Source of the DNA: Clostridia bacterium
Lineage (GTDB): Bacteria > Bacillota > Clostridia > Christensenellales > UBA3700
NCBI GenBank assembly: GCA_013316135.1
Contig: WSNH01000001.1
Span: 1 to 57,791 of the forward strand
Direction: 5' to 3'
DNA: 57,791 nucleotides
Part shown: positions 27,143 through 44,652 of the stretch, piece by piece
Numbering within the stretch: the stretch's first letter is position 1
Layout: each line of letters begins with the position of its first letter
The notes under the pieces: generated by a model
Told to the model about the DNA's origin: nothing
Database searches by the model: none
Seen by the model: the letters and a program-made list of their open reading frames with translations, nothing else
Made by a program: the position numbers and the translations under genes

Positions 27143-27156
27143 ATAATCTCCTTGTT

Positions 27157-27171
27157 TATGTCTAAATATGT
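27157..27171 (-). promoter_or_regulatory. element operator site
   Basis: TATGTCTAAATATGT: two TATGT repeats spaced 10 bp apart. Further copies are at 28143-28157 (variant), 40788-40800, 53427-53439, 53852-53864 and about 53930-53944, each in a promoter or just ahead of a minus-strand gene. Confidence 0.6.
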
Positions 27172-27203
27172 TTTATAATTCCCAAAAATATAAGACGTTA
27201 GTC

Positions 27204-28115
27204 CTATATTTTGTTGTTCTCCAAAGCCTCAACAAACTTCATATACTGGTCTCTATAGCTGAACGCATAGTTGAGCGTACATCCCATAATAGAAGTAATT
27301 TTGTTGATAAGACTCTTGTCGGTTGTGTCGTTGTACACTTCAATGAATAGTGCATTCTTGTGTAAGTTACGGAACACTATCGAAGTTTTCATCGAGCGAG
27401 GGATGCAGTTATTAAACCGCTTAATGATTTGGATGATCTGACCGCCGTCGAGCTTTTCGCAATTCGCATCCGTCGGTCTGAACAGGTACTCGTCGCTACC
27501 CTTGAGGATAATTCTTCTTCCGGAAGGAAGACCATTGTATTCTTCCAACCCTGAAAGGTAGTAGAGAGCAGTAAAAGGTTGCCCGTACACTTCGTAGGTG
27601 CCGCTTTTGTTGGTAACTTTATAGCCGCTTAAATCAATTGGCGTTAAGTCGCGTACTTTGATGTCAGCGATTTCGTCTGGCGTAAACCCAAGCCAACCAA
27701 GGACACAGACGGACTTAACTCGTACAAGGTCGGTGGTTGGATTGTAATTAGCAAGCGCTGAGTTTCCAACTTTATCGACGAACTCAAGCAGCTCGTTAAT
27801 GCCGCGGAAGTAGCATATCGTGTCTTGTGATGCAAGCACTTCTTCTCGCGTTGGTACCGTGGCATCTACGCCCACAAAATCTAAAAGGTTGATAAGATAT
27901 TCCTTAATCTTTTGATAGTGGGGGCGAGAGATGTTGTTGCCTGCTTTCTGTAAGTAGAAAGCCGCACACAGTACTTGCGTATTCTTAAGTGCATCCGCTA
28001 ATGGTGTTTCGCCAATAATCTCAGCAAGGTTGTCAAGGAACCTCGTGATGTCGTTTTGTCGCGCAGTATCCGCGGAAGGGTAGTACCTCGCCGCAAAGTC
28101 TTGGTAGTCTATCAT
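27204..28115 (-). CDS. tyrosine-recombinase-like protein lacking the catalytic arginine
   Basis: 303 aa. Alpha-helical N-terminal half, then a recombinase-like segment where the usual GLRxxE is replaced by LGFTPDEIADIKVRDL. No clear HxxR or tyrosine box at the C-terminus. It may be an inactive recombinase relative used for DNA binding. It has GGAGG upstream and an excellent promoter at 28135-28163. Confidence 0.55.
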   Translation of the reverse strand: MIDYQDFAARYYPSADTARQNDITRFLDNLAEIIGETPLADALKNTQVLCAAFYLQKAGNNISRPHYQKIKEYLINLLDFVGVDATVPTREEVLASQDTICYFRGINELLEFVDKVGNSALANYNPTTDLVRVKSVCVLGWLGFTPDEIADIKVRDLTPIDLSGYKVTNKSGTYEVYGQPFTALYYLSGLEEYNGLPSGRRIILKGSDEYLFRPTDANCEKLDGGQIIQIIKRFNNCIPRSMKTSIVFRNLHKNALFIEVYNDTTDKSLINKITSIMGCTLNYAFSYRDQYMKFVEALENNKI

Positions 28116-28134
28116 TGTCTTATACCTCCATTCT

Positions 28135-28163
28135 ATTATACAACATTATTAGACATAAGTCAA
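28135..28163 (-). promoter_or_regulatory. promoter with internal operator
   Basis: On the minus strand: TTGACT, 17 nt, TATAAT. The spacer holds a variant of the element operator (TATGTCTAATAATGT), so a regulator binding there would block polymerase. It drives the recombinase-like gene below it. Confidence 0.75.
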
Positions 28164-28220
28164 TGCCGTATAAGTTAAATTTTATGTATAAGATAGGAAA
28201 ATGGGTGGAGGTTTATCGAC

Positions 28221-28745
28221 TTATTGTTTTCCCTTCATATTGTTCCCGTATAAGTTAGGAAACAATACTGCCATTGCGTCCACAAACGCCTGCTTCTCTG
28301 AGATGTTCTCTTTGTTTTGAGCGTTAGAGGCGGCGGCGCCTTTCGTTTTATCCGGCGTCTTTTCTTTTTTGTTTGTCTTGCCGAAGAGCGCATTGAAGAA
28401 TGCAAGAAGGAGTGCGTATTTTTCTTCGACGCTCATCCTGACGTCAAAACAAACGTCTTGCATATCGTCAATATAATCTTCGTATTGTTCGCCAATATCG
28501 TCACCGACCTCAGCGATTGCGCAAATATGTATGTCGTGCTTGGTAAACTTCACGAGGAAGTCAACCGACTGCACATCGAATGGAAGGTTTAGCGGATGCC
28601 CGCATTCCGTGAAGTCGTAGCTAAAACTCACGACCTTTTCTTCTATATCGACGTGAAGCGCCATAATAAGGTTGGGGTCGAAGACAGCATCTTCGCAAAC
28701 AAGCTGTCTGCCCCTTGCGTTTCTGTTAGTGCTAAAAAGTTTCAT
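28221..28745 (-). CDS. hypothetical protein
   Basis: 174 aa from the Met at 28745, chosen for its AGGAGA box. No recognised domain. The central part is acidic, the C-terminal third is low complexity (about residues 125-150), and it ends in a helix. It follows the recombinase at 28759. Confidence 0.55.
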   Translation of the reverse strand: MKLFSTNRNARGRQLVCEDAVFDPNLIMALHVDIEEKVVSFSYDFTECGHPLNLPFDVQSVDFLVKFTKHDIHICAIAEVGDDIGEQYEDYIDDMQDVCFDVRMSVEEKYALLLAFFNALFGKTNKKEKTPDKTKGAAASNAQNKENISEKQAFVDAMAVLFPNLYGNNMKGKQ

Positions 28746-28758
28746 CTCTGATGTTCTC

Positions 28759-29748
28759 CTAATTTGATAATTTTTTTTCGAGTTGGTCAATCTTTGAAAC
28801 TATATCATCGATTGTGTAGTTGTTGCCCGCTACAATTTCGTGTATGTCCGTCTTTCCCAAAACGAAGTCGCTCACAGACTCTCTGGCTCTGTCGAACATT
28901 TGCTGATAGGTGCCCAAATATCTCATTGTAACACGCTGATCGCTGTGGTTCAGCAGCCCTTGAATCTTTGTGATTGCGTTCATGTCGATACTTGACTTAT
29001 CTACACAAGCAGCAATGTTGGCGAAGCTTTTACGCATTGTATGAGACCCTATTATTATTGGTAGGCTCAAAGCTTTGCCGGCATCGGACAAAATCTTCCA
29101 CCCATATTCCTCGAACATTTTGCCCTTTGTCTTGTTGCTTTTGAAGAGGTAGTCGTCCAACTCAAAATCCCAATTCATCGAGTCAAATAACTTCGTCGCC
29201 GCGTCTATAACGGATTGAGTTATAAGGCAATTATTTATCTTCAAAGTCTTTTGTTCGACGATGTGCATTCGTTGCCTGAATGTCTTGTCGTCGTTGAGCA
29301 AATAACATATCTTTAGTGACAGTAAGTCAGAGATGCGTAACCCAAGGCTTACTCCGATTGTCCACATAGCCCAGTCTCTTATTTTGCCGTTCTCTAAGAA
29401 GTAATTCTGTACCGCGGCAAAATCTTCATACGAGCGGATGGGGTCTGCTGGACGTGGCTTTCGTTTACCATCTGACTTAAATTCGGAAAACACTTTTGGT
29501 GCCGCAGCTTCCATCTCGGTTTTTGTTCTGCGCTTGCGGCGCGGCGCGTTCTCAAGTTCGTTGACTTGGCGCTGCAAGCGGTCTGCTCGTTCCTCAGCAT
29601 CTCGACGCATAACGCGCTCAACTGCGAGCTCTTCAACGAGCTGCTTATTCTCAAGCTCAAGGCGACTTAATTTTTCTGCATCGGTTTCAAACGCCCTTGG
29701 GATGGGGAACTCTAAAACAACAGCGCCGCTATTATATTCATTTCGCAT
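28759..29748 (-). CDS. tyrosine recombinase with N-terminal coiled coil
   Basis: 329 aa from the Met at 29748 (GGAGG 9 nt upstream). Residues about 15-75 are a charged coiled coil, followed by a basic linker. The catalytic domain has GVSLGLRISDLLSL, SHTMRKSFAN and LLNHSDQRVTMRYLGTYQ with a candidate nucleophile Tyr. It is a second recombinase besides the integrase, and may act in resolution, inversion or conjugative processing. Confidence 0.8.
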   Translation of the reverse strand: MRNEYNSGAVVLEFPIPRAFETDAEKLSRLELENKQLVEELAVERVMRRDAEERADRLQRQVNELENAPRRKRRTKTEMEAAAPKVFSEFKSDGKRKPRPADPIRSYEDFAAVQNYFLENGKIRDWAMWTIGVSLGLRISDLLSLKICYLLNDDKTFRQRMHIVEQKTLKINNCLITQSVIDAATKLFDSMNWDFELDDYLFKSNKTKGKMFEEYGWKILSDAGKALSLPIIIGSHTMRKSFANIAACVDKSSIDMNAITKIQGLLNHSDQRVTMRYLGTYQQMFDRARESVSDFVLGKTDIHEIVAGNNYTIDDIVSKIDQLEKKLSN

Positions 29749-29935
29749 CTTTGTCGCCCTCCATATATATTTCTTCAAATGTGTTCAATTGGGTTAGAAT
29801 TGCCTGAAGCATCGGGCAATTATTGCAACCGTTAGGCTTATGTATGTGGCACTCATCGGTGCCGTGTAACCGACAGACAACCATCTGGTTGCCCTTACCG
29901 TCGGCTATTTTTTTAGTTAATGGTTCGTAGCTCAT
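29738..29935 (-). CDS. small cysteine/histidine-rich protein
   Basis: 65 aa with CRLHGTDECHIH and NGCNNCPML, a possible zinc site. Start 1 nt after the mazF stop; it overlaps the recombinase start, so it is coupled at both ends. Function unknown. Confidence 0.6.
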   Translation of the reverse strand: MSYEPLTKKIADGKGNQMVVCRLHGTDECHIHKPNGCNNCPMLQAILTQLNTFEEIYMEGDKDAK

Positions 29936-29936
29936 G

Positions 29937-30278
29937 TTAAACTCCTATACCGATAGAAATCATAAGTTTTCTGTTAATGTCTTCAATTTTGCTTCGATTA
30001 ACAACTTCGCCCAACTTCTTCTTAAGTCTCGTTTTGTCCACGACTCTAACCTGCTCACATAACACCGTAGAAACCTTTAGTATACCAGCATCTTTCGGCG
30101 TCAGCGTAACGTGGGTTTCTATCGGTGTCTTGTCTTGCGAAGTTAGAGGGCAGATGATAGTGGTAGGGGAATGCTGGTTCCCTTGCTCATTCTGTACTAT
30201 CAAAGCGGGGCGAATACCGGTTTGTTCCGAGCCAACTTGATTGCTTAAATCGACTAAATATATTTCGCCTCGGTGCAT
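29937..30278 (-). CDS. mazF: MazF/PemK family mRNA interferase
   Basis: 113 aa covering the family: RGEIYLVDLSNQVGSEQTGIRPALIVQNE, TIICPLTSQ, and VLCEQVRVVDKTRL. A sequence-specific endoribonuclease fold. No typical MazE/PemI-like antitoxin precedes it; the upstream 75-aa protein is acidic and helical and could take that role. Next to RNA-repair genes, an RNase is notable because its products are substrates for repair. Confidence 0.85.
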   Translation of the reverse strand: MHRGEIYLVDLSNQVGSEQTGIRPALIVQNEQGNQHSPTTIICPLTSQDKTPIETHVTLTPKDAGILKVSTVLCEQVRVVDKTRLKKKLGEVVNRSKIEDINRKLMISIGIGV

Positions 30279-30534: not shown

Positions 30535-31668
30535 TTATAAATTGTGTTTCAGTAGGAATTGATTGCTGATACACTTAAAGCTGATGGTGTTGTCGTGGTC
30601 TCTTATTACAACACCTTCCCTAAGTGTATCGCACAAAGTAGATTTGCCGTCTGCGTAGGCAATCATTTCATCGACGGTAGGAAGCAGCTTAAAGTCCGCG
30701 TTGAGTATCGGAACCCATTTAATTCCGAAGTCGTGCATCACATCTGTGGCAATTGAGCTGTCCATTTTGACGCCGTCGATTACAAGGTTGAAGGAATAGA
30801 AGTCAATTCCCTTAAGACCATATTTGTTCTTCTGGATGCCCTCGCCAATGGTTTCGCCCTGTAATACAACAGTCGTTGCGCCGTACTTCTCCATAATTTT
30901 CAAGAGAACATTGCGAATGTCGTACTTTTGAGCGATTTGATGATAAACGTTCTCGTCGTAGAAACACTTCTGGGTGATGTCGGCTTGGCGGACGTTCCTT
31001 GAACACACCGCGAAGTCATATTTTCTTTTCTTTTCTTTTCTCAACCCGAAGCTCGTAGAGGTGCCGTCAATTTTTTCAGTGACGACCATTGACTTGTCCT
31101 TGTATGTATCGAGGACGAAAGGCATATTTTGCAATCTCGTTTCGTCCGTTTTGACTATCCAGTCAGGGAAGTTCTTGGGTTTCTTTTTGGGTGCAAGAAG
31201 TTTGTAAACGGTCTTTCTGAACCATTTGAACTTCATAAACCACAAGAAGACTTTGTTCTTGAACAGTTTCTTATGGCGCTGCTTAATTGCCGCCGCGGGG
31301 TCTTTAACCTGTTGCTTCGGAACTTCGTCCTCAATCTGCTTAATCTTAAGTACATCGGTTACGTCATCGCCGAGCACATAAGCTTTCCCGTCGTGCAAGA
31401 TTGAGAGAGGGAAGATGATGCCTTGCGAAATTACACCGCGCATCTTCATTGTCTTAATCTTATAGTGCTTCGATTCAAGGAATGCGAAGTCAGGGTTGTC
31501 GGCAGGCATAATGCTGTCAATCTCAACGTAGATTGCAAGATCGCCAACCTTAAATTCGTTTTTCTTCACAATACATTGCCAGCCAAGTATGCCAGCGAGT
31601 TCAATTTTGTCGGCTCCCTCAATAGGACGGAGCCACGCAATTTGTTCAATGTGAGCAAGCTTTCTCAT
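30535..31668 (-). CDS. RNA ligase, DRB0094/Rnl5-type
   Basis: ATP-dependent RNA ligase. It is 377 aa. An N-terminal OB-like domain (IEGADKIELAGILGWQCIVK ... GDLAIYVEIDSIMP) is typical of the Deinococcus Rnl family. The nucleotidyl lysine is in EKIDGTS (K about 199), with later QGETIGEG and EGVVIRD (motifs III-IV). A basic, hydrophobic insertion at about residues 130-165 is unusual. The family seals 3'-OH/5'-phosphate nicks, and the matching end-healing activity (Pnk-HD) is encoded 8 kb away. Confidence 0.88.
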   Translation of the reverse strand: MRKLAHIEQIAWLRPIEGADKIELAGILGWQCIVKKNEFKVGDLAIYVEIDSIMPADNPDFAFLESKHYKIKTMKMRGVISQGIIFPLSILHDGKAYVLGDDVTDVLKIKQIEDEVPKQQVKDPAAAIKQRHKKLFKNKVFLWFMKFKWFRKTVYKLLAPKKKPKNFPDWIVKTDETRLQNMPFVLDTYKDKSMVVTEKIDGTSTSFGLRKEKKRKYDFAVCSRNVRQADITQKCFYDENVYHQIAQKYDIRNVLLKIMEKYGATTVVLQGETIGEGIQKNKYGLKGIDFYSFNLVIDGVKMDSSIATDVMHDFGIKWVPILNADFKLLPTVDEMIAYADGKSTLCDTLREGVVIRDHDNTISFKCISNQFLLKHNL

Positions 31669-31680
31669 TTTTTACCTCTT

Positions 31681-31857
31681 TTAGTCCCAAATTTCTTTAT
31701 CTGTTTGTCGTTGTATCCTTCTGCGTGCCAACTTACGCATTGGCTTCTTAAAGCTTTTAGCGCGCAATGTGCCAGCAAAAATATGATACTTTCGTGTTCC
31801 TCTGTCCATATCGGCAGCGCTGTACTCTTTAGATACGGTTAAATTAACCTTGTCCAT
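31681..31857 (-). CDS. small basic protein
   Basis: 58 aa, start MDKVNLTVSKEY, strongly basic C-terminal half (SFKKPMRKLARRRIQRQ). It fits between the RNA ligase and gp88 genes without overlap. It may bind nucleic acid; no family recognised. Confidence 0.6.
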   Translation of the reverse strand: MDKVNLTVSKEYSAADMDRGTRKYHIFAGTLRAKSFKKPMRKLARRRIQRQTDKEIWD

Positions 31858-31871
31858 AAATGCTTTCCTTT

Positions 31872-32510
31872 TTAATGCTTATTGAATACAACAGATTCGC
31901 CCGCTTTAATGTTCCAGCACTGCAAGCAATTTGTGCAGTCACCAGAACACTCAGCCGCCGTTTCTGGTATTGAGTTGTTCTCACTATCCTTAAACCGAAC
32001 ATATGCCACAGGGAATGAGTAGGGGTTGTCAATTTTGAAGTCGTCGCCCCAAGCGCTGAACACGATGTGAAGGTTCTTCGGAATAGTGCCGCCGTTATGT
32101 ATAAACTCGTTTACGATTTCAAATTTCTTCGTAAAGGCAAGGAAGGAAGTGAGGGGAAGTTCTTCGGCGACTTTAACCACGCCCTCAAAATACGCTCTAT
32201 CCACGAAGTCGCCAGCAGCGTGCCAACGGAAGTATGAGTATGAAACCATTCCGTTGTTAATTGCGTGCTTGATTTCCGCAAAGTAGGTCTCTGGATCGTG
32301 GAAGTATATCTTGTAGTTGTTCGCGAGATTGTCCTTGACATTCTGAAAACGGAAACGTCCTTTGGTTGCGTAGCAGTCTTTCGCGCAAGGGCAATTTGGT
32401 CGGCAGGTTGTTATCGGCGGTAAGTTAACCGACGGTATCAACCCAAGCTTACTGTTTGTTGTAGATATCTTAACCGGCATATAAATCTCCTTTATTGGCT
32501 CATTGTCCAA
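31872..32510 (-). CDS. phage gp88-like protein
   Basis: 212 aa with the cysteine pattern of the 'gene product 88' family: TCRPNCPCAKDCYATKGRF (about residues 39-57), FRWHAAGDF, LAFTKKF, and a C-terminal CSGDCTNCLQCW. Common in phages and mobile elements, function unknown; probably metal-binding. It confirms the mobile character of this region. Confidence 0.8.
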   Translation of the reverse strand: MDNEPIKEIYMPVKISTTNSKLGLIPSVNLPPITTCRPNCPCAKDCYATKGRFRFQNVKDNLANNYKIYFHDPETYFAEIKHAINNGMVSYSYFRWHAAGDFVDRAYFEGVVKVAEELPLTSFLAFTKKFEIVNEFIHNGGTIPKNLHIVFSAWGDDFKIDNPYSFPVAYVRFKDSENNSIPETAAECSGDCTNCLQCWNIKAGESVVFNKH

Positions 32511-32557
32511 AGAGAAGATTTATATTAAGTTAAGTCAGTCTCTTTGGACTGATTGGA

Positions 32558-33322
32558 TTACTCCAATGTTGCGGGCATATTTCTCTTATGCTCCGATGCT
32601 TGGTGCATTTGCTCTATCTTAAGAGCAGTTTCATAATCGGTGTTTGACATACCACCGCTTATATATCCGTCGAGCGTAGCGTATGTAAACCCGAAACTGT
32701 CTTCATCGGTCTTACCGCACAGCCCGTCGGATGGTGTTTTGGTAACGTACTTTTTATTTAATCCGAACTCATCGGCAAGCAGGTCGCCGAGAGCCATAAC
32801 CTCTGTGCAGGTTAAGTGAGCGATAGGGTTGAAGTCGTAGGCGCTGTCGCCCCACTTGGTTGTCCAACCTATATAAGCTTCACTTGCATTACCCGTTCCG
32901 ATAACCCTGTATCCGAGCGTTTGTGCAACCGCATACAAAACCGTCATGCGAATACGGGGAGGGATATTTGTCTTTGCTTTGTCGGTAACTTTGGGGCAGT
33001 TCGCAACGAAGTCTCTTCCGATAGGTGTTTCTTCGATGCGGTTCTCTATAACGTGCAGAAGAGAGTTGTAGACGGTTTCAATGTTGACAATGCGGTGCTC
33101 AATACCGAGCGTCTTAACAATGTCAAGAGCATCGTCAATATCCTTTTGTGTGCCGTTCGGCATTAAGACACCGAACACGTTGTTGCCCCAAACTTTCTTT
33201 GCAAGCATCGCAACGACCGTGCTATCTTTACCGCCGCTTATTCCGAGTACAATGCCGCGGCAGCGTGTGGCTTCTTTGTATTGTTCAAGCCAGTTCAAAA
33301 TTTCCTTTAATTTAGTTTCCAT
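32558..33322 (-). CDS. nadE: ammonia-dependent NAD synthetase
   Basis: Amidates nicotinate adenine dinucleotide to NAD. It is 254 aa, the NH3-dependent short form. PP-loop GISGGKDSTVVA (about residues 26-37), GTGNASEAYIGWTTKWGDSA (about 147-166), and KTPSDGLCGKTDED near the C-terminus. Its start lies 16 nt inside the macro gene. Last gene of the five-gene NAD operon. Confidence 0.94.
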   Translation of the reverse strand: METKLKEILNWLEQYKEATRCRGIVLGISGGKDSTVVAMLAKKVWGNNVFGVLMPNGTQKDIDDALDIVKTLGIEHRIVNIETVYNSLLHVIENRIEETPIGRDFVANCPKVTDKAKTNIPPRIRMTVLYAVAQTLGYRVIGTGNASEAYIGWTTKWGDSAYDFNPIAHLTCTEVMALGDLLADEFGLNKKYVTKTPSDGLCGKTDEDSFGFTYATLDGYISGGMSNTDYETALKIEQMHQASEHKRNMPATLE

Positions 33323-33783
33323 ATTTCAACCTTCCATTCATCACCGGCAAATTCTTCCTCGATGATTTTCTTAACTATATTCCAATCGCCGCCACCAAGA
33401 CCGCAACCGATGTGGTCAGGGAAGCCAATCGTAAAGTCTTTATTAACAAGCTCTGTTGGTATGAGCATTTTAAGCTGTTGGCAACTCAACCTAAACATCT
33501 CATAGTTTGTGTGATTGATGCCACGGGGCAAGTAATGGAATTGTGCGAACATATTGGCAATGTAACGAGTATTGTCCTCGGAAACTGCACATATTTGAGC
33601 AACGCCCATTAAATATTCCAGCTTATACTGATTGCATACTTGCTTATATTTTTCAAAGACTTGAGGGTAGGTAGAGCGTATTTGCTTCGCTATACCCGAA
33701 CCCATAACGCCTTGGCAGTTCACTTGGTGACAGATAATATTGCAATTGCTTTTCAGTAAGTCGCCATTTTTATAAGTAACCAT
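33307..33783 (-). CDS. macro-domain protein
   Basis: 158 aa, single macro domain: GDLLKSNCNIICHQVNCQG, MGSGIAKQI, and C-terminal GIGCGLGGGDW. Such stand-alone phage-type macro domains bind ADP-ribose; some remove ADP-ribose from DNA or protein, and Poa1p relatives hydrolyse ADP-ribose 1''-phosphate, a by-product of tRNA splicing. Placement inside an NAD-recycling operon supports an ADP-ribose substrate. It shares one base with NAMPT and overlaps nadE. Confidence 0.9.
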   Translation of the reverse strand: MVTYKNGDLLKSNCNIICHQVNCQGVMGSGIAKQIRSTYPQVFEKYKQVCNQYKLEYLMGVAQICAVSEDNTRYIANMFAQFHYLPRGINHTNYEMFRLSCQQLKMLIPTELVNKDFTIGFPDHIGCGLGGGDWNIVKKIIEEEFAGDEWKVEIWKLN

Positions 33784-35276
33784 TAAAAGTTATCTCCGTA
33801 AAGTCTTTTTCTGATGTCGGCAAGGCTGTACTCGAGTACCATCTTGCCATCGATAAAGACCGCCTTTAAGGTATTGTCGGCACGATAGGTTGCTTTGAAG
33901 TCGTGTTCGTCTTCACTCGTTAACGCGCCGTCAGCCCCCGTTAAAACAAGCACACAGCCCTTGTGGGACTTTTTGAAGGAAGCCTCTTTGGGATTTTTGA
34001 AAATCATAATGGGCTTGCCGTCTTTGTCTTCAGCGTAGGTCGCCTTAATAGCGATGCCGAACGTATCTCTGGTGTATGGATTGAATCTCGGAATAGCCGC
34101 GTGTTCCTCATAGGACTCAAGGCACTGCATAGAGAAGCTACCAACACCAAGTGCAACGTTGCTTGCTGCAAAACCGTTGTTAACCAAAATGGTGTAAATC
34201 GATTCCGCTCTTTGAGGTGTGATGCTATCGCCGTATATAGCCTTAATATGGGGGTTCAGAACCTTGTAACCCTTTGAGTTGACTGTTCCACCGAACTGCT
34301 CCCAAAGATGGAATACAGTCTTTGTGACGACTTCTACGGGGTCGCCAGAGTCGCCGCGCACCAAGAGGCATCCGTTGTGTTCGAGGATTTCCTTCTTGCA
34401 CATTGGTAAGATGTTGTCCACCAAGTTCCAGTAATCGTAGCTGTCGCTTACCATACTAAAAGACGTGTTGGGATACGTTTCTGTGAGCAAACGCTTAATC
34501 ATTGTGATTTCGTCGCTGTCAACTGCAAAGTTACTGCACATTACGGAGTGTTCGGTTGACACCGAGCCAAAGCCGACTTCCTCTTTTTCGCAGTCGCAGT
34601 TGTAATATTTTTCCATATAATCTACCGCCGGAACCGTTGCTGTGTTCACGAAGGATAACAGCCAGCCTGCGGAAGATTTGTATGCGCTGCGCTTCGACTC
34701 TTGACCTCTCATAGAGAAGTCACCAAGAGCTTTTCTACGAGGGATATTGTCATCGCAACTCATATCGTAGAAGTGGTCTACGATTTTTCTGTACTTGTAG
34801 CCGACGTTTGCGGAAATCATAGCGTGCCACATTTCGCAGCTTATCACAGATTCCAAGGCATTTGTGAGCCAAGCAAAGTCGGGGTGGGTGTTACTTATCT
34901 CGAACATCGGAACGCCGATAGGAACGAGCGTTCCCTCTGCAAGAGCTTTAATCTCGATAGGAAGATAGCCCAAGTCGTGCAACTCTGCAACGCGCTCGAT
35001 GCCGTACAACCCCTCGCCGAGGGTGTTGTCGAGAAGATGTTTATATTCGCGTACAACGTCTTCCTTAGGACGGGAGAAGAAGAACTCGTTGAAGTCTTCG
35101 ATGAGATATTCTTTGATGAATGACTGCAAACCAAACATAATAAGGTGCTTATCATTTTTCAGCCTGCTCATTCTCGGCACAAAGTAGCTTACGACTTTCG
35201 TTATGCCTTTGGGGTATTGGTTCCAGTGAACTTGCTTATAGAAGTCACTCTCTAAAAGTGGGTTAATTCTGTACAT
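33783..35276 (-). CDS. nadV: nicotinamide phosphoribosyltransferase
   Basis: Makes NMN from nicotinamide and PRPP. It is 497 aa, full length. Compared with human NAMPT: GDFSMRGQESKRSAYKSSAG corresponds to the DFGYRG region, SVSTEHSVM holds the catalytic His, and LLVRGDSGDP corresponds to RPDSGNP. PRPP synthetase overlaps upstream by 14 nt and would supply its co-substrate. Confidence 0.93.
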   Translation of the reverse strand: MYRINPLLESDFYKQVHWNQYPKGITKVVSYFVPRMSRLKNDKHLIMFGLQSFIKEYLIEDFNEFFFSRPKEDVVREYKHLLDNTLGEGLYGIERVAELHDLGYLPIEIKALAEGTLVPIGVPMFEISNTHPDFAWLTNALESVISCEMWHAMISANVGYKYRKIVDHFYDMSCDDNIPRRKALGDFSMRGQESKRSAYKSSAGWLLSFVNTATVPAVDYMEKYYNCDCEKEEVGFGSVSTEHSVMCSNFAVDSDEITMIKRLLTETYPNTSFSMVSDSYDYWNLVDNILPMCKKEILEHNGCLLVRGDSGDPVEVVTKTVFHLWEQFGGTVNSKGYKVLNPHIKAIYGDSITPQRAESIYTILVNNGFAASNVALGVGSFSMQCLESYEEHAAIPRFNPYTRDTFGIAIKATYAEDKDGKPIMIFKNPKEASFKKSHKGCVLVLTGADGALTSEDEHDFKATYRADNTLKAVFIDGKMVLEYSLADIRKRLYGDNF

Positions 35277-36072
35277 TTAAGATACCTGCCCTGTATTTTT
35301 TTGTGACGATAAGCTTCGGGTGTGATACCGTACAAATACTGTCAGTTGTGAACACCTCGTCGATATAGTCGAACACTTCGCCTTTGAGAATGTTGTTCTC
35401 GCAATGGGAAACAACAAGCGTGATGTGCTCAACGCCACGTTTTCTTAATTCTTTTGCAGCCGACACAAAGGTGCCGCCGTAGCTGCATATGTCATCGCGA
35501 ATGATGACGCTCTTTGTTCCCTCGGTGAAGTTCATAAGCTCGTAGCCGTCGATGCGCCCTTCGCTGTTGCGATGTTTACTGCCAACGATGAAAGGATTGT
35601 CTGTTGGATCGAGTTGATAGCGTGGCGCATATTTCTTTGCCGCGCCGTTATCTGGGAACATTATGGTTGCGACTTTATCTTTCGGTGCAACGCTGAAAGG
35701 TAAGTCGGTTTCTTCAACACGATTGATGAGTGCCATTGCCACGTCGGAGTGGGGGTCAAGAACGAACACCTTGTTGAAGTTCATTGCGTTGATTGCTTCT
35801 GCAAAATACTTCAGCGTGAACAGCCTGTTACTGACGTTCCTGTCTTGTCTTGCGTGAGGAATGTATGGCATACAAAGATTGATGAGTAAGCCGTGGTGAT
35901 GTTCTTGAATGTGCCTTACAAGGCTCCACAAGCAGAACAGCTCTGCATCATTATCGTAGCACCACGTTATGTAGATAAATCCTCTCGCGGTCTCAATCGG
36001 CGGGATAGGACACTTAAGCGTGCCATCGCCGAACACCTCTTGTGTAACGATTGTGTTATCGATTTTAATCAT
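35263..36072 (-). CDS. prs: ribose-phosphate pyrophosphokinase-like protein (PRPP synthetase)
   Basis: 269 aa, shorter than the usual about 315. Key sites are present: CMPYIPHARQDRNVS, VFVLDPHSDVA and the PRPP loop VIIRDDICSYGGT. Likely supplies PRPP to NAMPT. Overlaps nicotinamidase by 4 nt and NAMPT by 14 nt. Phage-encoded Prs-NAMPT pairs are known. Confidence 0.9.
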   Translation of the reverse strand: MIKIDNTIVTQEVFGDGTLKCPIPPIETARGFIYITWCYDNDAELFCLWSLVRHIQEHHHGLLINLCMPYIPHARQDRNVSNRLFTLKYFAEAINAMNFNKVFVLDPHSDVAMALINRVEETDLPFSVAPKDKVATIMFPDNGAAKKYAPRYQLDPTDNPFIVGSKHRNSEGRIDGYELMNFTEGTKSVIIRDDICSYGGTFVSAAKELRKRGVEHITLVVSHCENNILKGEVFDYIDEVFTTDSICTVSHPKLIVTKKYRAGILNVQN

Positions 36073-36602
36073 TTCACTACCTCAACTTGGCAACTACGCA
36101 TTACTTCCAGCGCGGCATTGTGTTTCTCTTCGGTAAGCCCTGCGCACAAATCCTTGTGTACGATTATTTGCGCCTCTTTGAACGCGCCAATCATCGCAAG
36201 TACGTTCGATACAACGCAGATGTCGGTGCAGGTTCCGCAGAACTCTATCGCCTCGGGCTTCTCGCAAATTGTTTGAACGCCAACATACAAACTCGTTCCA
36301 CCGGAAAACGTTGATTTGTTTACAAAAGCAACTCGTGCCTTTTTATTTTCATCCGCCGCTTTAAGGATTTCACTGTTAACGCGCCAGCCTTCTGTCTGTG
36401 CGATGCAGTGTGGGACGGGAAGGTGCTTGCCTTCTCTGGTGTTGAGATAATCTTGGTTGTGGGTATCTCTCGTAAAGACGATTAACCCTTCAAACTTTGA
36501 GACATACTTCGCGACTTTTTTAACGATTGTCTGAGCCAACGGATTGGCTAACGAACCGTCTATGAAGTCGTTTTGCATATCGACAACAACTAATACTTTC
36601 AT
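36069..36602 (-). CDS. pncA: nicotinamidase / isochorismatase-family hydrolase
   Basis: 177 aa. DMQNDFIDG (catalytic Asp, residue 8) and FCGTCTDICVVSN (catalytic Cys) match nicotinamidases. It would convert nicotinamide to nicotinate, feeding the deamidated route that ends at NadE, while NAMPT uses nicotinamide directly, so the operon encodes parts of both routes. Its ATG overlaps the stop of a 53-aa gene. Confidence 0.87.
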   Translation of the reverse strand: MKVLVVVDMQNDFIDGSLANPLAQTIVKKVAKYVSKFEGLIVFTRDTHNQDYLNTREGKHLPVPHCIAQTEGWRVNSEILKAADENKKARVAFVNKSTFSGGTSLYVGVQTICEKPEAIEFCGTCTDICVVSNVLAMIGAFKEAQIIVHKDLCAGLTEEKHNAALEVMRSCQVEVVK

Positions 36603-36760
36603 TGTTCCTCCTGAATTTTTATTTCTGTGAGTATTTGTTCTTTTGTCTGTATGCGCCGAGCATATTCAAGCGCATCCTCGAACGACTTTGCCTCAACCGT
36701 TTCTGTTGTAAAGTCGTTTTTGTCAAGTTCGTAAAATTTGATGATGTATGTGTCATTCAT
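36599..36760 (-). CDS. small hypothetical protein
   Basis: 53 aa, MNDTYIIKFYELDKNDFTTE start. Its TGA overlaps the pncA ATG and its 3' end carries the pncA ribosome-binding site, so translation is probably coupled. No domain recognised. Confidence 0.6.
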   Translation of the reverse strand: MNDTYIIKFYELDKNDFTTETVEAKSFEDALEYARRIQTKEQILTEIKIQEEQ

Positions 36761-36823
36761 ATAGGTGTCCTCGCGCGCGGAAAACTTTCGCGACGAACGA
36801 ATCTCGTTCGCCGTCTTTTGTTG

Positions 36824-36900
36824 TGGTCGGAGCGACAGGATTTGAACCTGCGACCTTATGATCCCAAATCATACGCACTACCAAACTGTGCTACGCCCCG
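36824..36900 (-). tRNA. tRNA-Pro (TGG)
   Basis: 77 nt, uninterrupted. Acceptor CGGGGCG/CGCTCCG (one G-U), anticodon stem TATGA/TCATA with loop TTTGGGA, T-loop TTCAAAT, discriminator A and encoded CCA. Its first 10 nt supply the stop codon of the 145-aa gene upstream. Confidence 0.95.
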
Positions 36901-37328
36901 ATAATTGAGACTTCGTGCGGGCTGATATAATATTTTCCTACCTTATAGTCCGCATATTTGACCGTTTTAAGTTGATGATAGATTTTAATATCACTGCCAT
37001 CATCTAACGTGAGCCAAATATATTTGCAGTTATAACGCTTGTCTGTAAGGCGAAATTCCTCGCCTCGTTTGCATATGAAGTCACTTGCAATTTGCTCTTC
37101 TGAAAACTCGATAAACGCCCCATAATCTCCAACAACAATCCTGTCGTAACCGGAGCATATTTTAGTACCTTTAGATGTAAAAAGCGGCTGATTAGCGCCA
37201 GTGATAGAAAGCTCCGCTGGAATATTAGACGAGAAGAGCTCTCGATATTTTTTAGATAAAGCGGGCGGGAGAGGCTTATAATCGTAAGACCACGCAAGTT
37301 GTTTTTCAATCTCTAAAGTGTTCATCAA
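36891..37328 (-). CDS. hypothetical protein overlapping tRNA-Pro
   Basis: 145 aa; no family recognised. The TAG stop is formed by tRNA nucleotides 8-10, so the coding sequence runs 10 nt into the tRNA. Transcript processing to make the tRNA would cut the mRNA at its stop codon. Confidence 0.6.
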   Translation of the reverse strand: MMNTLEIEKQLAWSYDYKPLPPALSKKYRELFSSNIPAELSITGANQPLFTSKGTKICSGYDRIVVGDYGAFIEFSEEQIASDFICKRGEEFRLTDKRYNCKYIWLTLDDGSDIKIYHQLKTVKYADYKVGKYYISPHEVSIIGA

Positions 37329-37347
37329 TGCCTACTTTGATTATGAT

Positions 37348-38157
37348 TTACACGTGACAATCGACAACCGTAATCCAATCATCGTCGCCAGCGTCTTCAA
37401 AGACTTCTTTTTGGAACTTTTCGAGCCAATCAAGCTCGTTATCATAGTCCCAATCCTTTGAAACCCACTCACCGTCCTTAAGATATCCGTAGAGCAGGAA
37501 GGCACCCATACAACGGACATAGTTTTCTTTTGTTTTATAGTGGGATGTGTAGTATTCTTTCTTATAGCGGAACGGATCCGTGAGGATTTTCTTTTCTTCA
37601 TCGGTCTGCGGCTCCGCGCCCTCGATGTAAATTTCCCAGAAGCGAGCCGCCTTAGCCTTTTGTTCTTCACGATCGGGAAATACCATGCTCTTGATTCTGG
37701 CGCCGTCGCATTTCTTATAGCGCAAATCGTCGCTTTTATAAGGGTCTGTATCGCCGTAACCCCAGCTTTTTGAACCAATGATACAATCGCAGTTAACGGG
37801 GACATTGACCTCGGCGCAATATCTGCCGCCAATCTGCCACCAATCCCATTGTGAGTTTGGATTTGAGTAGTAGCCGTATTGTTGCGTTGCTTCGTCGTAT
37901 TCGTACTGTACGTGCTCGGTCATATATTCACGGAACGACATCAACTCTTTTATGGGGCGTTCTTGACCATCTTTTTCGATAGTTTTCTCTTCATATTCTT
38001 CCTTGTATCCGTTGACTTCTTCGTCATCGATAGGACAAAATTCGAGATATTCTTGTGGTACGTCTCCCATATTGTTTTCTTGGAATGGAGCAAGCGCATC
38101 CATAATGTCAGCTTCTGACGGCATACTGTGCGTAACTACTGCAATAGCAAAGTGCAT
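37348..38157 (-). CDS. phage-type hypothetical protein
   Basis: 269 aa, tryptophan- and tyrosine-rich, very acidic; includes NPNSQWDWWQIGGRY (about residues 97-111), a block common in uncharacterised phage proteins. The C-terminal WITVVDCHV is conserved-looking. Function unknown. It lies between tRNA-Ser and the 145-aa gene. Confidence 0.7.
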   Translation of the reverse strand: MHFAIAVVTHSMPSEADIMDALAPFQENNMGDVPQEYLEFCPIDDEEVNGYKEEYEEKTIEKDGQERPIKELMSFREYMTEHVQYEYDEATQQYGYYSNPNSQWDWWQIGGRYCAEVNVPVNCDCIIGSKSWGYGDTDPYKSDDLRYKKCDGARIKSMVFPDREEQKAKAARFWEIYIEGAEPQTDEEKKILTDPFRYKKEYYTSHYKTKENYVRCMGAFLLYGYLKDGEWVSKDWDYDNELDWLEKFQKEVFEDAGDDDWITVVDCHV

Positions 38158-38180
38158 AAGTGTACTCCTTTATGTATTGT

Positions 38181-38270
38181 TGGCGGAAGCGGTGAGATTT
38201 GAACTCACGAACCCTTGCGGATTGCCAGTTTTCAAGACTGGTGCATTAAACCAGACTCTGCCACACTTCC
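38181..38270 (-). tRNA. tRNA-Ser (TGA)
   Basis: 90 nt with the long variable arm of class II tRNAs. Acceptor GGAAGTG/CGCTTCC, anticodon loop CTTGAAA, T-loop TTCAAAT, discriminator G and encoded CCA. Uninterrupted. Confidence 0.95.
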
Positions 38271-38282
38271 ATAGCGGTGCAA

Positions 38283-39110
38283 TTAAGCACCAAGCTGCTC
38301 TTTGAACCACTGCCGCAGAACGTCAACCTTGATTTGCTCAAGCTTGTCGTAGGAAGATACGTTGCAGTCGGTTCCGTGTTCGTCAATATACTTATTTTTC
38401 ATCGCCGCGTTTTCATCGTCCAATTCCTTGGCGATTTTCAATGCGTCGGCGAGGGGAATGGTGTTAAGTTTTGCCTCTGTCATTAAGATAAGCGTCTGTT
38501 CGTCGTGAGTAGTCAAACACTGCTCAAATGGCATATCAGCAATATAGTTTTTCATAAATTCGTTAACACGGATGATATGATGGAGTTGTTTGCCGTCGTA
38601 TCCGTATTGGTCGATTTTATGCTTGATGGTAGGATAAGGGTGGCATAGGGCTTTGTATTTCTCATAGCTCATACCAGCCATTGTTTTAAGAGTTTGAGAA
38701 GGGTGACAGTGAACAAGCTCCTCAGCAAGGCGACGCAATTTTCTCCAATGCTTTGCATATTTGTCTGCGACGATAAAATACTTAGTGAAGAGAATTTCGA
38801 CGAAGTTAACGTTCTGCTTCTTAAACGTCTCAAACATAATGCGAATGTCCTTCAGATCAATATGTTCTTTATTTTCACGTTCACAGGTGGTAGAGATAGG
38901 GGCTTTCCCGCGGCAGAAGTCATCGAACGAAGGCAGCACGATAACCTTTGTATCAACATCGCTTTGATACTGCGCGCTGTACACATCGAGGTCATAGTTC
39001 TGGCTGCCCTGTAAGAACACACCAAAAACTTCGTGTCCCATAAGGCAAGCTTCTCTGTAGTGCTGCTGCACTTTTGTACGGATAAGGCTATTGCGTTCTT
39101 GTTTGTTCAT
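38283..39110 (-). CDS. RlaP-like nucleotidyltransferase (RNA-repair pathway, pol-beta fold)
   Basis: 275 aa from the Met at 39110, 1 nt after the upstream stop. The nucleotidyltransferase core is visible: VFGVFLQGSQNYDLDVY, then SDVDTKVIVLPS with the DxD metal pair. The family is annotated as DNA-polymerase-beta-like and associated with RNA repair. Linkage here to Pnk-HD and RNA ligase fits. Its activity is not known with certainty. Confidence 0.8.
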   Translation of the reverse strand: MNKQERNSLIRTKVQQHYREACLMGHEVFGVFLQGSQNYDLDVYSAQYQSDVDTKVIVLPSFDDFCRGKAPISTTCERENKEHIDLKDIRIMFETFKKQNVNFVEILFTKYFIVADKYAKHWRKLRRLAEELVHCHPSQTLKTMAGMSYEKYKALCHPYPTIKHKIDQYGYDGKQLHHIIRVNEFMKNYIADMPFEQCLTTHDEQTLILMTEAKLNTIPLADALKIAKELDDENAAMKNKYIDEHGTDCNVSSYDKLEQIKVDVLRQWFKEQLGA

Positions 39111-39111
39111 T

Positions 39112-39522
39112 TTAATGCTCCAAAATGCAAACTGCCCGAAGGGTAAGGTATGTGTGTTCGGTATCCTCATAGCCTTCTTGGTAAAGAACAAAAGATTTTA
39201 AGAGGATATCCGTATTCGGGTGATTTAGAAGATGATTGAAGTCTACTGTGAACCGAGACATATAATCGTACTCACCGGTTAAATATTGCGGCTCTAACTC
39301 CTCATCGTAATTGTGTTCGTCGGCAGCTTCTTTTAAGGCTTCGTATTCCCAAGAAGACTTATCTGTTTTAATCTTTTTGAGCTGAGCCTCAAACTCTTCA
39401 ACAGCGTCTTCCTTATTGTTAAAGAGCAACGTTTCGTTATCGCGCTCATCATTCGTCGCCCAGTCTAACGTAAGTTTGAAGATTACTTTTGATACATTTT
39501 TTGTGGATGTTAAAATTTCCAT
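39112..39522 (-). CDS. hypothetical acidic protein
   Basis: 136 aa from the Met at 39522 (2 nt after the Pnk-HD stop). Glu- and Asp-rich centre, no recognised fold. Sandwiched between Pnk-HD and RlaP with nearly zero spacing, so it may belong to the repair set. Confidence 0.6.
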   Translation of the reverse strand: MEILTSTKNVSKVIFKLTLDWATNDERDNETLLFNNKEDAVEEFEAQLKKIKTDKSSWEYEALKEAADEHNYDEELEPQYLTGEYDYMSRFTVDFNHLLNHPNTDILLKSFVLYQEGYEDTEHTYLTLRAVCILEH

Positions 39523-39524
39523 AG

Positions 39525-40421
39525 TTATGCTCCAGCAACGTCGCACTGATGAAAGGCATTTAATAAATGTGACAATTCATCGGGGAGCGCTGCGCTATAT
39601 TTTGTATTGAGAAATGGATCCATATGTACGTTTATAAGCCAATAAATTAAAGCTCTTTGTTTGGTATGTAACCCAAGCGTTTCTTCATAGCCGATAGCAA
39701 AGTAACTGCCCACATTGTGGTGGTTGTAGAAGTGTGCAATATCACACGGCTCGCCACGGCTATTCTTAAAGGCTTTTACAAACTTCTTACCGATGTCATG
39801 AAGACTTGCGGCAACAAGTAATGTGATTGCAACACCTTTACCTTGACGCCTACCTTGCTGCAATTTTGCCGCCTCGGTCATAACGTTTAAGGTGTGTTCT
39901 TTAACAGTGTTATTGTGATGAGGATTATCGTGTTCGCAGTTAAGCCAGTCCTCATAATTACTACGCTTGTAGGGCTCGTCATTCAGTTTGAACTCAATAC
40001 TATCCCAGCCTTCGTCGTAATAGGGAGGCTGGAAGTTGAGAAGCATACGCTTAATTACGTTCTCACCAACATTACGATTTCTACCAGTATCTCTTGCAAC
40101 GCAAGTTTCGTATCTTGCCCATACTACATAGGCAATCTTCTCGCAAGGGATTGTGATGCTTGATAAGAGGTGCTTACGCTTTTTGCGGCTGATGTTAGTT
40201 GCGTCATATATGATATTCTTTCCGTCTTTCAATGCGGCGATGGTGCGTCTTTGCATTTCCTCAAATATTTTTGCGGGGTCATCCTGTATCGTTTCGTCGC
40301 CATAGAATTCTTTACGTATTGCATCGGATGATAAGATAGTGGTGTTGCTATCGGCGAGCTGACGTGCAACTTCACTTTTGCCAGACCCCGGCAAGCCTAT
40401 GAGCATATAAAACTTAACCAT
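39525..40421 (-). CDS. polynucleotide kinase fused to HD-domain phosphohydrolase (Pnk-HD)
   Basis: 298 aa from the Met at 40421, overlapping the upstream gene by 8 nt. N-terminal kinase: YMLIGLPGSGKSEVARQ P-loop, then YDATN and RDTGRNRNVGE. C-terminal HD domain: HTLNVM ... AASLHDIGKKF ... HNVGSYFAIGY. Bacterial HD-Pnk enzymes with the opposite domain order phosphorylate 5'-OH and remove 2',3'-cyclic or 3' phosphates from RNA, giving ends an Rnl ligase can seal. An end-healing role is therefore likely. Confidence 0.85.
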   Translation of the reverse strand: MVKFYMLIGLPGSGKSEVARQLADSNTTILSSDAIRKEFYGDETIQDDPAKIFEEMQRRTIAALKDGKNIIYDATNISRKKRKHLLSSITIPCEKIAYVVWARYETCVARDTGRNRNVGENVIKRMLLNFQPPYYDEGWDSIEFKLNDEPYKRSNYEDWLNCEHDNPHHNNTVKEHTLNVMTEAAKLQQGRRQGKGVAITLLVAASLHDIGKKFVKAFKNSRGEPCDIAHFYNHHNVGSYFAIGYEETLGLHTKQRALIYWLINVHMDPFLNTKYSAALPDELSHLLNAFHQCDVAGA

Positions 40422-40776
40422 AGACCACCTCACCGAAAATTGCATACTGAATGATTACATCGGCGTCTTCGGCATCAATGGATGAGGGATCAATCTTTCC
40501 TTCGTGGAGGACATCGAGACCACCTTCGCCGATAGCCTTTGCAAGTCCAGCAAGGAACTTGTCCAGTGTCAGTTCATATGTTTCATCTTCCTCGGAGTCG
40601 TGCAGCTTAAGGGTGCCGCCGCGAGATATTTGTTCGCTGGCATACTCGCCAAGATAATCGCCAACAACTTCGGCGTCATCGCACCAATATGTAATGCCAC
40701 CTTCTAAGGCGGTAGCCATTATATCGTCTATACACTCATTGTCGAGTTCGACTTTGTAATTGATGTTAAGTTCCAT
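40414..40776 (-). CDS. hypothetical acidic protein
   Basis: 120 aa from the Met at 40776 (GGAG 9 nt upstream). No domain recognised. An operator copy at 40788-40800 lies just ahead of the ribosome-binding site, so this is probably the first gene of the repair/NAD block. Confidence 0.6.
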   Translation of the reverse strand: MELNINYKVELDNECIDDIMATALEGGITYWCDDAEVVGDYLGEYASEQISRGGTLKLHDSEEDETYELTLDKFLAGLAKAIGEGGLDVLHEGKIDPSSIDAEDADVIIQYAIFGEVVYG

Positions 40777-43503: not shown

Positions 43504-44652
43504 TTAACCGGCACGGAGAACATCTTTGATAGTTTGTTCAACGTCCTTATTAAATTTTGCACTGTACGACTTAATAATCGTCTCAATTGTCGCGCCTTCT
43601 ACCATCTTATAGTAAGAGATAAGCCCTTGAAGGTGCTGTGTATCTTCGAGGCTCCATACATTGCCGTTCTTCTCGTCGTTCATAAACGAGAACAGCATTG
43701 CCTTGAAAACCTTTTTCTTGGAATGACCGATTGTGATTTGGTTATCGCTGTTGAGCATCACGCCCAAGTTCCAGTTTCGACCAGCGGAACTTCCGTATCT
43801 CGTCTTTGTCATGTTGAGAGAGAAGGGGGCGTGGAACTTGTTAGCAACTATGTCTACGATGGTGTCTTGAACCTCGCGCCAATTAAACGCCAAGTCGCTC
43901 GAAAGGATGATATCGTCCGCATATCTTGTGTAGACGAGGTGTGGAGTCATCTCTCTCGCGGTCTTTGCAATGTAGTGGTCTATGGGTATCATAAACAAGT
44001 TGGTAAGGGTAGGGCTAATGGGGGTGCCCTGCGGCAAACCGTTGTTGAGATAGCATATCGACAATGCTTTTACCAGAGCTTCTCTTCCGTTAGGTCTTGC
44101 GACGATTTCGTTGAAGGGGAAGATGGTTTCAAGCTGCGAGATGATAAATTCGGGCTTCGAGCTTCCAAAGAAGTCGTGGAAGTCGAGCTTCAAGAACCAG
44201 CGCGACTTATTGCGCTGATGTCTTTTAACTGCATCGATAGTGCTTCTGCCTTTTACATAGGCAAATGCCGCGGTATGATAGCTTGCATAAAGTTTCTTCT
44301 CAAAAAGATATTTGAGTTCCCTCAGTGCGTTCATTAAATCGTCAAGCGGTGCATTTATCTGACGAAGACCGCCGCTACGCTTGGGGATTTTGAAACTCCT
44401 ATACAGAGTGGACTTGTCTTCGGTGTTGATGAGATTGATGTACTTTTCGTTAAATCTTACAAGAGCCGCAATCATTTCGTCAAAATCCGTATCGTCGAGG
44501 AGTTTTTGCGGTGTGTTGTTTCTGAACACGGTCTTAGTATCGTGAGTGTCTTCCATCTGGCGCTCAAACACGGACTCGTTCATTCCGTTCAAAATATCGT
44601 CAAAAGAAATCTGATGGAACTTTTGACTTACGGGTACTGTTATGTACGGCAT
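43504..44652 (-). CDS. reverse transcriptase, retron / group-II-intron-like
   Basis: 382 aa. RT motifs in order: FKIPKRSGGLRQINAP, LKLDFHDFFGS, NNGLPQGTPISPTLTNLFM, and catalytic YTRYADDIILSS (about residues 240-251). NLGVMLNSDNQITIGHSKKK matches the segment after motif 5. There is no DGR-type IGNxxSQ motif and no maturase or endonuclease domain, which favours a retron-like or unassigned bacterial RT. It is preceded by a 300-nt structured leader and followed by RNase HI. Confidence 0.88.
   Translation of the reverse strand: MPYITVPVSQKFHQISFDDILNGMNESVFERQMEDTHDTKTVFRNNTPQKLLDDTDFDEMIAALVRFNEKYINLINTEDKSTLYRSFKIPKRSGGLRQINAPLDDLMNALRELKYLFEKKLYASYHTAAFAYVKGRSTIDAVKRHQRNKSRWFLKLDFHDFFGSSKPEFIISQLETIFPFNEIVARPNGREALVKALSICYLNNGLPQGTPISPTLTNLFMIPIDHYIAKTAREMTPHLVYTRYADDIILSSDLAFNWREVQDTIVDIVANKFHAPFSLNMTKTRYGSSAGRNWNLGVMLNSDNQITIGHSKKKVFKAMLFSFMNDEKNGNVWSLEDTQHLQGLISYYKMVEGATIETIIKSYSAKFNKDVEQTIKDVLRAG

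Follow-up and report, generated by a model that had tools for sequence, protein, structure and literature searches.

A phage-like element of a Clostridia bacterium with genes for RNA repair and NAD synthesis, a Ro60-like gene and RNAs that seat a stem-ACAGCAA element inside tRNAs

Repair genes, a Ro60-like gene and six RNAs on one integrated element

The stretch of DNA analysed here, which we call the window, is a contig of 57,791 nucleotides (WSNH01000001.1) from the genome of a Clostridia bacterium (assembly GCA_013316135.1). It begins with plus-strand genes of chromosomal appearance, followed by an integrated phage-like element that is read from the minus strand and extends from an integrase gene (25371-26579) to the end of the contig. 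Two regions of the element are our main subject: a block of genes for RNA end healing and sealing and for NAD synthesis at 30.5-40.4 kb, and, at 49.1-51.4 kb, a gene for a predicted Ro60-like protein, accompanied by six RNAs in each of which the motif ACAGCAA recurs. All genes and RNAs of these two regions lie on the minus strand.

The product of the gene at 49132-50688 matches DUF2828, DUF7788 and phrog_850, a family whose gene is present in 681 of 50,697 phage records, and is predicted to be an RNA-binding protein of the Ro60/TROVE fold. An AlphaFold model of it (23 sequences) has a mean pLDDT of 83 and shows the HEAT-like ring and the vWA domain of that fold. Structural matches to the model are headed by Ro60/TROVE chains, which fill ranks 1-9 in Foldseek and ranks 1-10 in VIA; the best Z score is 18.3, to 1yvr over 417 of 518 residues, and the next unrelated row scores 10.6. 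The MIDAS motif DxSxS reads D305-G-S-G-S, with D305, S307 and S309 invariant across the 23 sequences.

Directly upstream of this gene, between 51420 and 50766, we observed six minus-strand copies of ACAGCAA in six RNAs. RNA 1 (51337-51429) has a 9-bp outer stem and the motif around a tRNA-like cloverleaf; RNA 2 (51154-51222) and RNA 6 (50710-50781) each consist of an outer stem and the motif, in the layout of a Y RNA; RNA 3 (51054-51150) has a GGGAAGA/TCTTCCC outer stem, an inner hairpin and the motif. The remaining two are interrupted tRNAs, found as Rfam tRNA matches with long inserts. RNA 4 (50921-51037) has a Pro(AGG) anticodon arm and a G1-C72 pair, and carries between positions 29 and 30 an insert of 43 nt (50965-51007) made of a hairpin and ATACAGCAA. 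RNA 5 (50797-50914) has an Asn(GTT) anticodon arm, with an insert of 45 nt (50842-50886), a hairpin and TTACAGCAA, between positions 28 and 29. Neither RNA encodes CCA, whereas both ordinary tRNAs of the element do, a tRNA-Pro(TGG) with C1-G72 (36824-36900) and a tRNA-Ser(TGA) (38181-38270). The interrupted tRNAs that the initial annotation had noted on the element are therefore real; they lie at 50.8-51.0 kb, outside the repair block with which it had joined them, and the Ro60-like gene and the four further RNAs formed no part of its finding.

One could suppose that the six RNAs are Y RNAs of the known Rfam family YrlA (RF02553), and that the interruptions are effects of annotation. YrlA is built along similar lines, from a tRNA-like module and a Ro-binding stem beside a Ro60 gene, and gives weak matches in the window (32.6 bits) and in relatives, where circularly permuted tRNA-like units reach 40.1 bits. 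All of these matches, however, fall below the gathering score of 69, and tandem tRNAs may also yield such partial matches. In the interrupted tRNAs the topology is circularly permuted relative to YrlA, and RNAs 4 and 5 end as tRNAs do, have acceptor stems of 7 bp and possess a full anticodon arm each, whereas YrlA is described with only D, T and acceptor arms in the accessible portion of PMC8394870. We consider this explanation very improbable. A single YrlA RNA spanning RNAs 4 and 5 together was also tried and dropped, because each acceptor stem pairs 7/7 within its own gene. Separately, a full-length YrlA match below threshold lies at L060:7051-7163.

The repair block opens with an RNA ligase of the Rnl5 (DraRnl/NgrRnl) type (30535-31668), which combines an N-terminal OB domain (PF21189, residues 4-88, 104 bits) with a C-terminal nucleotidyltransferase domain (PF09414, residues 194-365, 60 bits). 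Its top PDB match, the Naegleria gruberi RNA ligase (5cot, 1.1e-40), is aligned across both domains; its KxDG nucleotidylation motif is K199-I-D-G, and it scores 139.6 bits against NCBIfam TIGR02306 (curated cut-off 151.15). At the other end of the block, a fusion protein (39525-40445, the previously given 40421 being an internal ATG) joins a P-loop polynucleotide-kinase-like domain (AAA_33, residues 14-141, 76 bits), which resembles the kinase domain of bacterial Pnkp and has the P-loop GLPGSGKS, to an HD phosphohydrolase domain with an HD motif (residues 183-281, 24.5 bits, cut-off 22). Next to it, a nucleotidyltransferase gene (38283-39191) is weakly RlaP-like: the likeness rests on a match to phrog_388 (38.8 bits, 1.1e-9), which is annotated as nucleotidyltransferase only, and on a GS...D-x-D motif, the protein having no Pfam or NCBIfam match.

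The NAD genes comprise the NAD synthetase NadE (32558-33322, 190 bits), the nicotinamide phosphoribosyltransferase NAMPT/NadV (33783-35276; PRK09198, 451 bits; PDB NAMPT, 6.5e-119), a ribose-phosphate pyrophosphokinase or PRPP synthetase (35263-36072; phrog_619, 207 bits) and a nicotinamidase-like protein of the isochorismatase fold (36069-36602; PDB nicotinamidase, 5.1e-14). None of the proteins of the element that were scanned was recognised as a NadM or NadR adenylyltransferase. Between NadE and NAMPT stands a macro domain protein (33307-33783; PF01661, 30.6 bits). It scores 72 bits against the DarG profile (cut-off 250), and its matches among solved macro domains include ADP-ribose 1''-phosphatases (6lfu, 2e-9); judged by its sequence it would fit the DarG-like and the ADP-ribose 1''-phosphatase-like types alike, and it cannot be assigned to either. 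Family matches thus confirm the ligase, the kinase-HD fusion, the macro protein and NAMPT that the initial annotation had named, and the role in RNA repair that it gave to this healing-and-sealing set is well supported; as for its RlaP-like enzyme, gene and motif are present and the identity is weak.

A sister element, on a viral contig of 47.5 kb (G045; records L203, L204 and L062), contains 26 of the 33 window proteins compared, most of them at 70-98% identity and two below 50%. Most of the repair block is found there in the same order, and the run from ligase to NAMPT, the kinase-HD gene and the Ro-like gene are all kept, as are the outer stem and hairpin of RNA 3. The ligase gene of the sister element (G045:16598-17814, L203) is broken into two overlapping frames, either by mutation (a frameshift) or by an assembly error.

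Stem-ACAGCAA RNAs and Ro-like genes in other phages and bacteria

We examined 13 records with a Ro-like gene, the window and Felix O1-like, Listeria, Staphylococcus, Mycobacterium, Campylobacter and Enterococcus phages among them, for ACAGCAA within 1 kb of that gene. The motif occurs 29 times in sense and never in antisense orientation, with 1.84 expected, and one record (L202) is without any copy. In most of the phages sampled the motif stands after one strand of a stem whose other strand lies downstream, as in a Y RNA; KVP40 is less clear. Around relatives of the Ro-like gene at 80 bacterial-genome loci there are 174 sense and 10 antisense copies within 1.2 kb, at least one motif being present at 67 of the 80 loci and an interrupted tRNA at 15. 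From this adjacency we infer that the stem and ACAGCAA form the binding element of the Ro60-like protein. The interrupted tRNA is a Ro60-linked RNA, with the stem-ACAGCAA element seated inside a tRNA. As a separate observation, the Ro-like gene of G043 (the L060 record; 11727-13118) has 14 in-frame TGA codons, so that TGA is probably a sense codon in that virus.

A pattern search of viral contigs yielded 62 loci. Many of these are tRNAs whose acceptor stems pair 7/7 and whose anticodon arms hold an insert of comparable length; other loci have tRNA-like units in circular permutation, in which a T arm, an acceptor strand, a short loop, the other acceptor strand and a D arm follow one another. 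Named carriers include Serratia phage BF, Erwinia pEa_SNUABM_19, Pectobacterium CBB and Aeromonas PX29, Aeh1 and phiAS5, and several such RNAs are entered in the public records as ordinary tRNAs, as 'OTHER' or as two-piece or pseudo tRNAs. In 25 selected inserts, the hairpin before the motif has a mean length of 7.28 bp, compared with 4.57 bp (sd 0.26) in shuffled sequences; a MAFFT alignment left the hairpin too loosely aligned to support a covariance model. The tRNA finder demands canonical tRNA features, and degenerate RNAs are therefore under-counted. The literature that we searched, from which most subscription journals and preprints are absent, gave no account of these RNAs or inserts, so that an earlier description is possible.

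Permuted units with ACAGCAA were observed at L031, L033, L037, L040, L045, L047, L056, L060, L063 and L066, some in tandem arrays and some with canonical anticodon arms. A second class of insert (TAACAGCAA or similar, after a hairpin) is present at L013, L022, L034, L224 and L226, in a tRNA-like RNA just upstream of a Ro-like gene; the anticodon loops of these RNAs are without T33.

For the co-occurrence of genes with the pattern, the test set was 50 contigs from the 62 hits, a set that includes unconfirmed cases of interrupted or permuted tRNAs as well as near-duplicates (for example L013, L017, L044 and L065). Twelve hits were dropped, most of them in coding-like sequence (L012, L018, L021, L025, L029, L030, L032, L038, L046, L064, L067 and L070). 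As controls we took 34 of 80 among the contigs listed, each at least 40 kb long and with an ordinary tRNA-Asn. Absences are weak evidence throughout, because viral contigs are often fragments. The phrog_850 gene occurs in 45 of the 50 pattern contigs, compared with 6 of the 34 controls (p 1.2e-11); it is present in 2 of the 12 dropped hits, and with all 62 retained the comparison is 47/62 against 6/34 (p 3.8e-8). RNA ligase stands at 30/50 against 12/34 overall (p 0.045), but among contigs of at least 100 kb at 19/21 against 8/10 (p 0.58), and is therefore not specific to carriers of interrupted tRNAs. Thus the check that the initial annotation had proposed, that repair genes should accompany interrupted tRNAs, does not come out in favour of its pathway: it is the Ro60-like gene that tracks the pattern. 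RlaP, in the same large contigs, is present in 16/21 against 2/10 (p 0.0057), both controls with RlaP also having the Ro-like gene, and RtcB in 3/21 against 2/10. The repair genes, then, are not specific to interrupted tRNAs, while RlaP and the Ro module travel together above chance.

These counts bear on the possibility that the element simply carries two unrelated modules, a repair and NAD kit at 30.5-40.4 kb and a Ro60/Y-RNA module for RNA decay or quality control at 49.1-51.4 kb. They are separated by 9 kb; ligase is often present where the Ro module is absent, and the Ro module often has no repair genes in its vicinity; the bacterial Ro60-Y RNA complex with PNPase is known in structured RNA decay, according to the portions available of PMC7790460 and PMC8394870. 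On the other hand, the former source also places Ro60 and Y RNAs within bacterial RNA-repair operons, RlaP is enriched with these RNAs in the large contigs, and the Ro-like gene of Listeria phage LMTA-34 has two ligase genes in its neighbourhood, one for a 'tRNA splicing ligase' at about 1.3 kb and one for an RNA ligase at about 4 kb. We regard two unrelated modules as an unlikely explanation, if one with real weight.

Spliced tRNAs or tRNA mimics

The initial annotation had proposed a protein-based pathway of tRNA splicing or repair. In the form of splicing that we considered, an unknown nuclease or the RNA itself would excise the ACAGCAA insert from a precursor held by the Ro60-like protein, and the kinase-HD protein and the ligase would then seal the two anticodon-stem halves, which lie adjacent as a nick in a duplex. 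Such an arrangement suits ligases of the Rnl2/Rnl5 type. The insert does behave as a precise unit: once it is exactly removed, 26 of 42 cases regain an anticodon stem made wholly of Watson-Crick pairs, the split lying after position 28 or 29, whereas swapping halves between genes (1000 rounds) gives 5.87 perfect arms on average and 12 at most. The two tRNA halves therefore belong together. The exon 5' of the insert ends in CG in 21 of 25 cases, a consistent 5' junction, and T33 and a purine at position 37 are found in 25 of the 25 best cases, both features having been part of the selection. Circularly permuted units also occur, RlaP is enriched with interrupted tRNAs, and the anticodon arm of RNA 5 is kept in the sister element with TTT as anticodon in place of the GTT of the window, all of which splicing would accommodate.

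We rejected one further test, the running of ARAGORN on artificially spliced tRNAs, which called none of the 42 unspliced and all 42 spliced sequences but also 143 of 159 control excisions displaced by 4 to 9 bases; the half-swap test, which had been run earlier, carries the argument instead.

Whether the interrupted RNAs could serve as decoding tRNAs was judged from identity features: C1-G72 for Pro, the nucleotide at position 73, and the long variable arm for Ser and Leu. We compared 30 interrupted tRNAs (perfect arms, T33, purine 37) with 628 ordinary tRNAs from the loci analysed, which served as an empirical yardstick. C1-G72 is present in 1 of 6 interrupted tRNAs with a Pro anticodon against 28 of 30 ordinary ones (p 0.00032), and G73 in 3 of 6 for Asn against 105 of 107 (p 0.00082). 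For Lys, A73 is found in 3/5 against 34/35 (p 0.036); the two interrupted Ser and Leu RNAs lack the long variable arm that 36 of 37 ordinary ones have (p 0.004); and G1-C72, absent from 33 ordinary tRNA-Gln, occurs in 2 of 3 interrupted ones (p 0.0048). The single Thr and Gly RNAs likewise depart from the ordinary set. Since many interrupted tRNAs lack these identity features and, on this element, have no encoded CCA, they look like tRNA mimics; at the level of sequence the comparison points to RNAs that would present an anticodon arm instead of serving in decoding.

Yeast-like tRNA splicing requires an endonuclease and KptA. The host assembly, a draft of 1.49 Mb in 226 contigs (90.8% complete) to which the window contributes one contig, contains no match to KptA/Tpt1 (PF01885), to the tRNA splicing endonuclease (PF01974) or to RtcB, so that the initial annotation, which had seen neither KptA nor a splicing endonuclease, is borne out within the genome as assembled. 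A route through a kinase, a 3'-end phosphatase and an Rnl ligase leaves no 2'-phosphate; NAD-dependent removal is therefore unneeded, and the macro protein and NAMPT are unexplained by splicing. The suggestion that KptA, NAD, the macro protein and NAMPT are linked through removal of a junction 2'-phosphate, considered as the main role of the set, we accordingly reject, as there is no KptA match and the NAD genes have a published explanation of their own: in phages, NAD synthesis and macro genes are explained as resistance to NAD depletion and ADP-ribose signals, in the portions available of PMC7824862 and PMC9503650.

Splicing is thus met by identity features that do not fit the anticodon in many interrupted tRNAs, by the lack of a match to endonuclease, KptA or RtcB in the genome, and by a ligase that is not specific to carriers; the insert, moreover, is the same stem-ACAGCAA element that forms free-standing RNAs beside the Ro60-like genes of other phages. 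On these grounds the splicing role put forward in the initial annotation is not well supported, although the precision of the insert and the enrichment of RlaP speak in its favour, and we think protein-based splicing improbable. Its most distinctive form would be a tRNA splicing of large phages and related elements that is unlike any known, with introns of about 41-57 nt (hairpin and ACAGCAA) in the anticodon stem, held by Ro60, which we rate as doubtful in the same degree; that RNA or an unknown nuclease would cut, the kinase-HD protein and the Rnl5-type ligase join, and permuted tRNAs be matured likewise, seems to us no more probable.

The wider element, a proposed role and known systems

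The sequence at 24138-29778, with two integrase genes and a third protein without family match (27204-28115) beside a chromosomal HIGH nucleotidyltransferase gene, is likely the left end and integration region of the element. Near the ligase gene, 29937-30278 encodes a small MazF/PemK-like protein (family judged from sequence) that is 98% identical in the sister element, and 31872-32510 a GP88-family protein (PF17338, 91 bits). A reverse transcriptase gene at 43504-44652, near those of retron St85 type (190 bits, cut-off 235) and adjoining an RNase H gene, may belong to a retron or be another defence reverse transcriptase carried by the element. The gene directly upstream of the RNA cluster (51604-52509) encodes a radical SAM protein and was not found in the sister element.

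With a confidence that only slightly exceeds an even chance, we favour over tRNA splicing a counter-defence role that combines tRNA repair with a particle of Ro60 and tRNA mimics. On this view the element would carry a set of phage-type counter-defence genes that serve the translation apparatus and NAD. The kinase-HD protein would phosphorylate 5'-OH ends and probably, through its HD domain, remove 3' phosphates or 2',3'-cyclic ones; nucleotides that have been lost may be put back by the RlaP-like enzyme, and the ligase of Rnl5 type would seal tRNAs cut by defence nucleases. NAMPT, PRPP synthetase, the nicotinamidase-like protein and NadE would rebuild NAD, and the macro protein would remove or degrade ADP-ribose products. 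Separately, the Ro60-fold protein would be made together with the six RNAs, all of which have a stem and, after it, ACAGCAA. RNAs 4 and 5 are most likely tRNA mimics held by this protein, rather than splicing substrates, and may act as decoys for anticodon nucleases or as a tether by which damaged tRNA is delivered to the repair enzymes.

Several points weigh against this proposal. We stress that the enzyme activities, the expression of the genes and RNAs and the binding of RNA by the Ro60-like protein are predictions. Splicing, too, would predict that the anticodon arm is restored with such exactness. The identity comparison is based on few RNAs, of related sequence; Phe (2/2 with G1-C72 and A73) and Ile (2/2 with A73) fit their anticodons at the positions compared, and encoded CCA, at 5 of 30 interrupted and 23 of 70 ordinary tRNAs of the same loci, gives no overall separation. 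Near bacterial Ro-like genes (flanks up to 4 kb), RlaP is found at 2, kinase-HD at 2 and ligase at 0 of the 80 loci. The host genome has no match to the PrrC/RloC-type AAA_13 domain, and the likeness of the macro protein to ADP-ribose 1''-phosphatase (6lfu) is what the pathway of the initial annotation would want.

In the available portions of two surveys (PMC7824862, PMC9503650), phage ligases, RlaP and kinases are explained as tRNA repair. T4-type repair (Pnkp and Rnl) and the sets of jumbo phages likewise bring together a kinase/phosphatase, an RNA ligase and an RlaP-like nucleotidyltransferase, and the accessible part of the jumbo-phage survey (PMC7824862) also names HD-like phosphatases and, in a small subset, ROT/TROVE proteins; unlike the sets described there, ours resides on an integrated element and has an Rnl5-type ligase, a kinase-HD fusion and ACAGCAA RNAs. 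NAMPT is present here as in the phage NAD salvage by NadV/NAMPT (PMC9503650), with PRPP synthetase, a nicotinamidase-like protein and NadE in addition to what that source, where available, describes. The bacterial rsr-yrlBA-rtcBA operon, as described in the portion available of PMC7790460, similarly unites a Ro60 homologue, tRNA-like Y RNAs and the RNA-repair enzymes RtcB/RtcA; by contrast, the genome studied here has no RtcB match, the ligase is of another family, and the RNAs have ACAGCAA, two of them being tRNAs with tRNA-type ends and an anticodon arm. Archaeal and eukaryotic tRNA splicing shares with our case an insert in the tRNA anticodon arm and the availability of healing and sealing enzymes, but here no splicing endonuclease, KptA or RtcB is matched and identity features are missing. 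As a phage counter-defence, the repair kit is of a kind already known; the Ro60 RNAs embedded in tRNAs are a variant for which the literature searched gave no description.

The finding joins three subjects that are usually separate, phage tRNA repair, Ro60-Y RNA particles and tRNA mimicry. It also carries a warning for annotation, as such RNAs are filed publicly as tRNAs, as 'OTHER' or pseudo tRNAs, or as two-piece tRNAs. If it is true that Ro60 in hundreds of phages holds RNAs that show a chosen anticodon loop, this would give phage Ro60 a concrete and testable role, in the protection of tRNA or as bait for anticodon nucleases.

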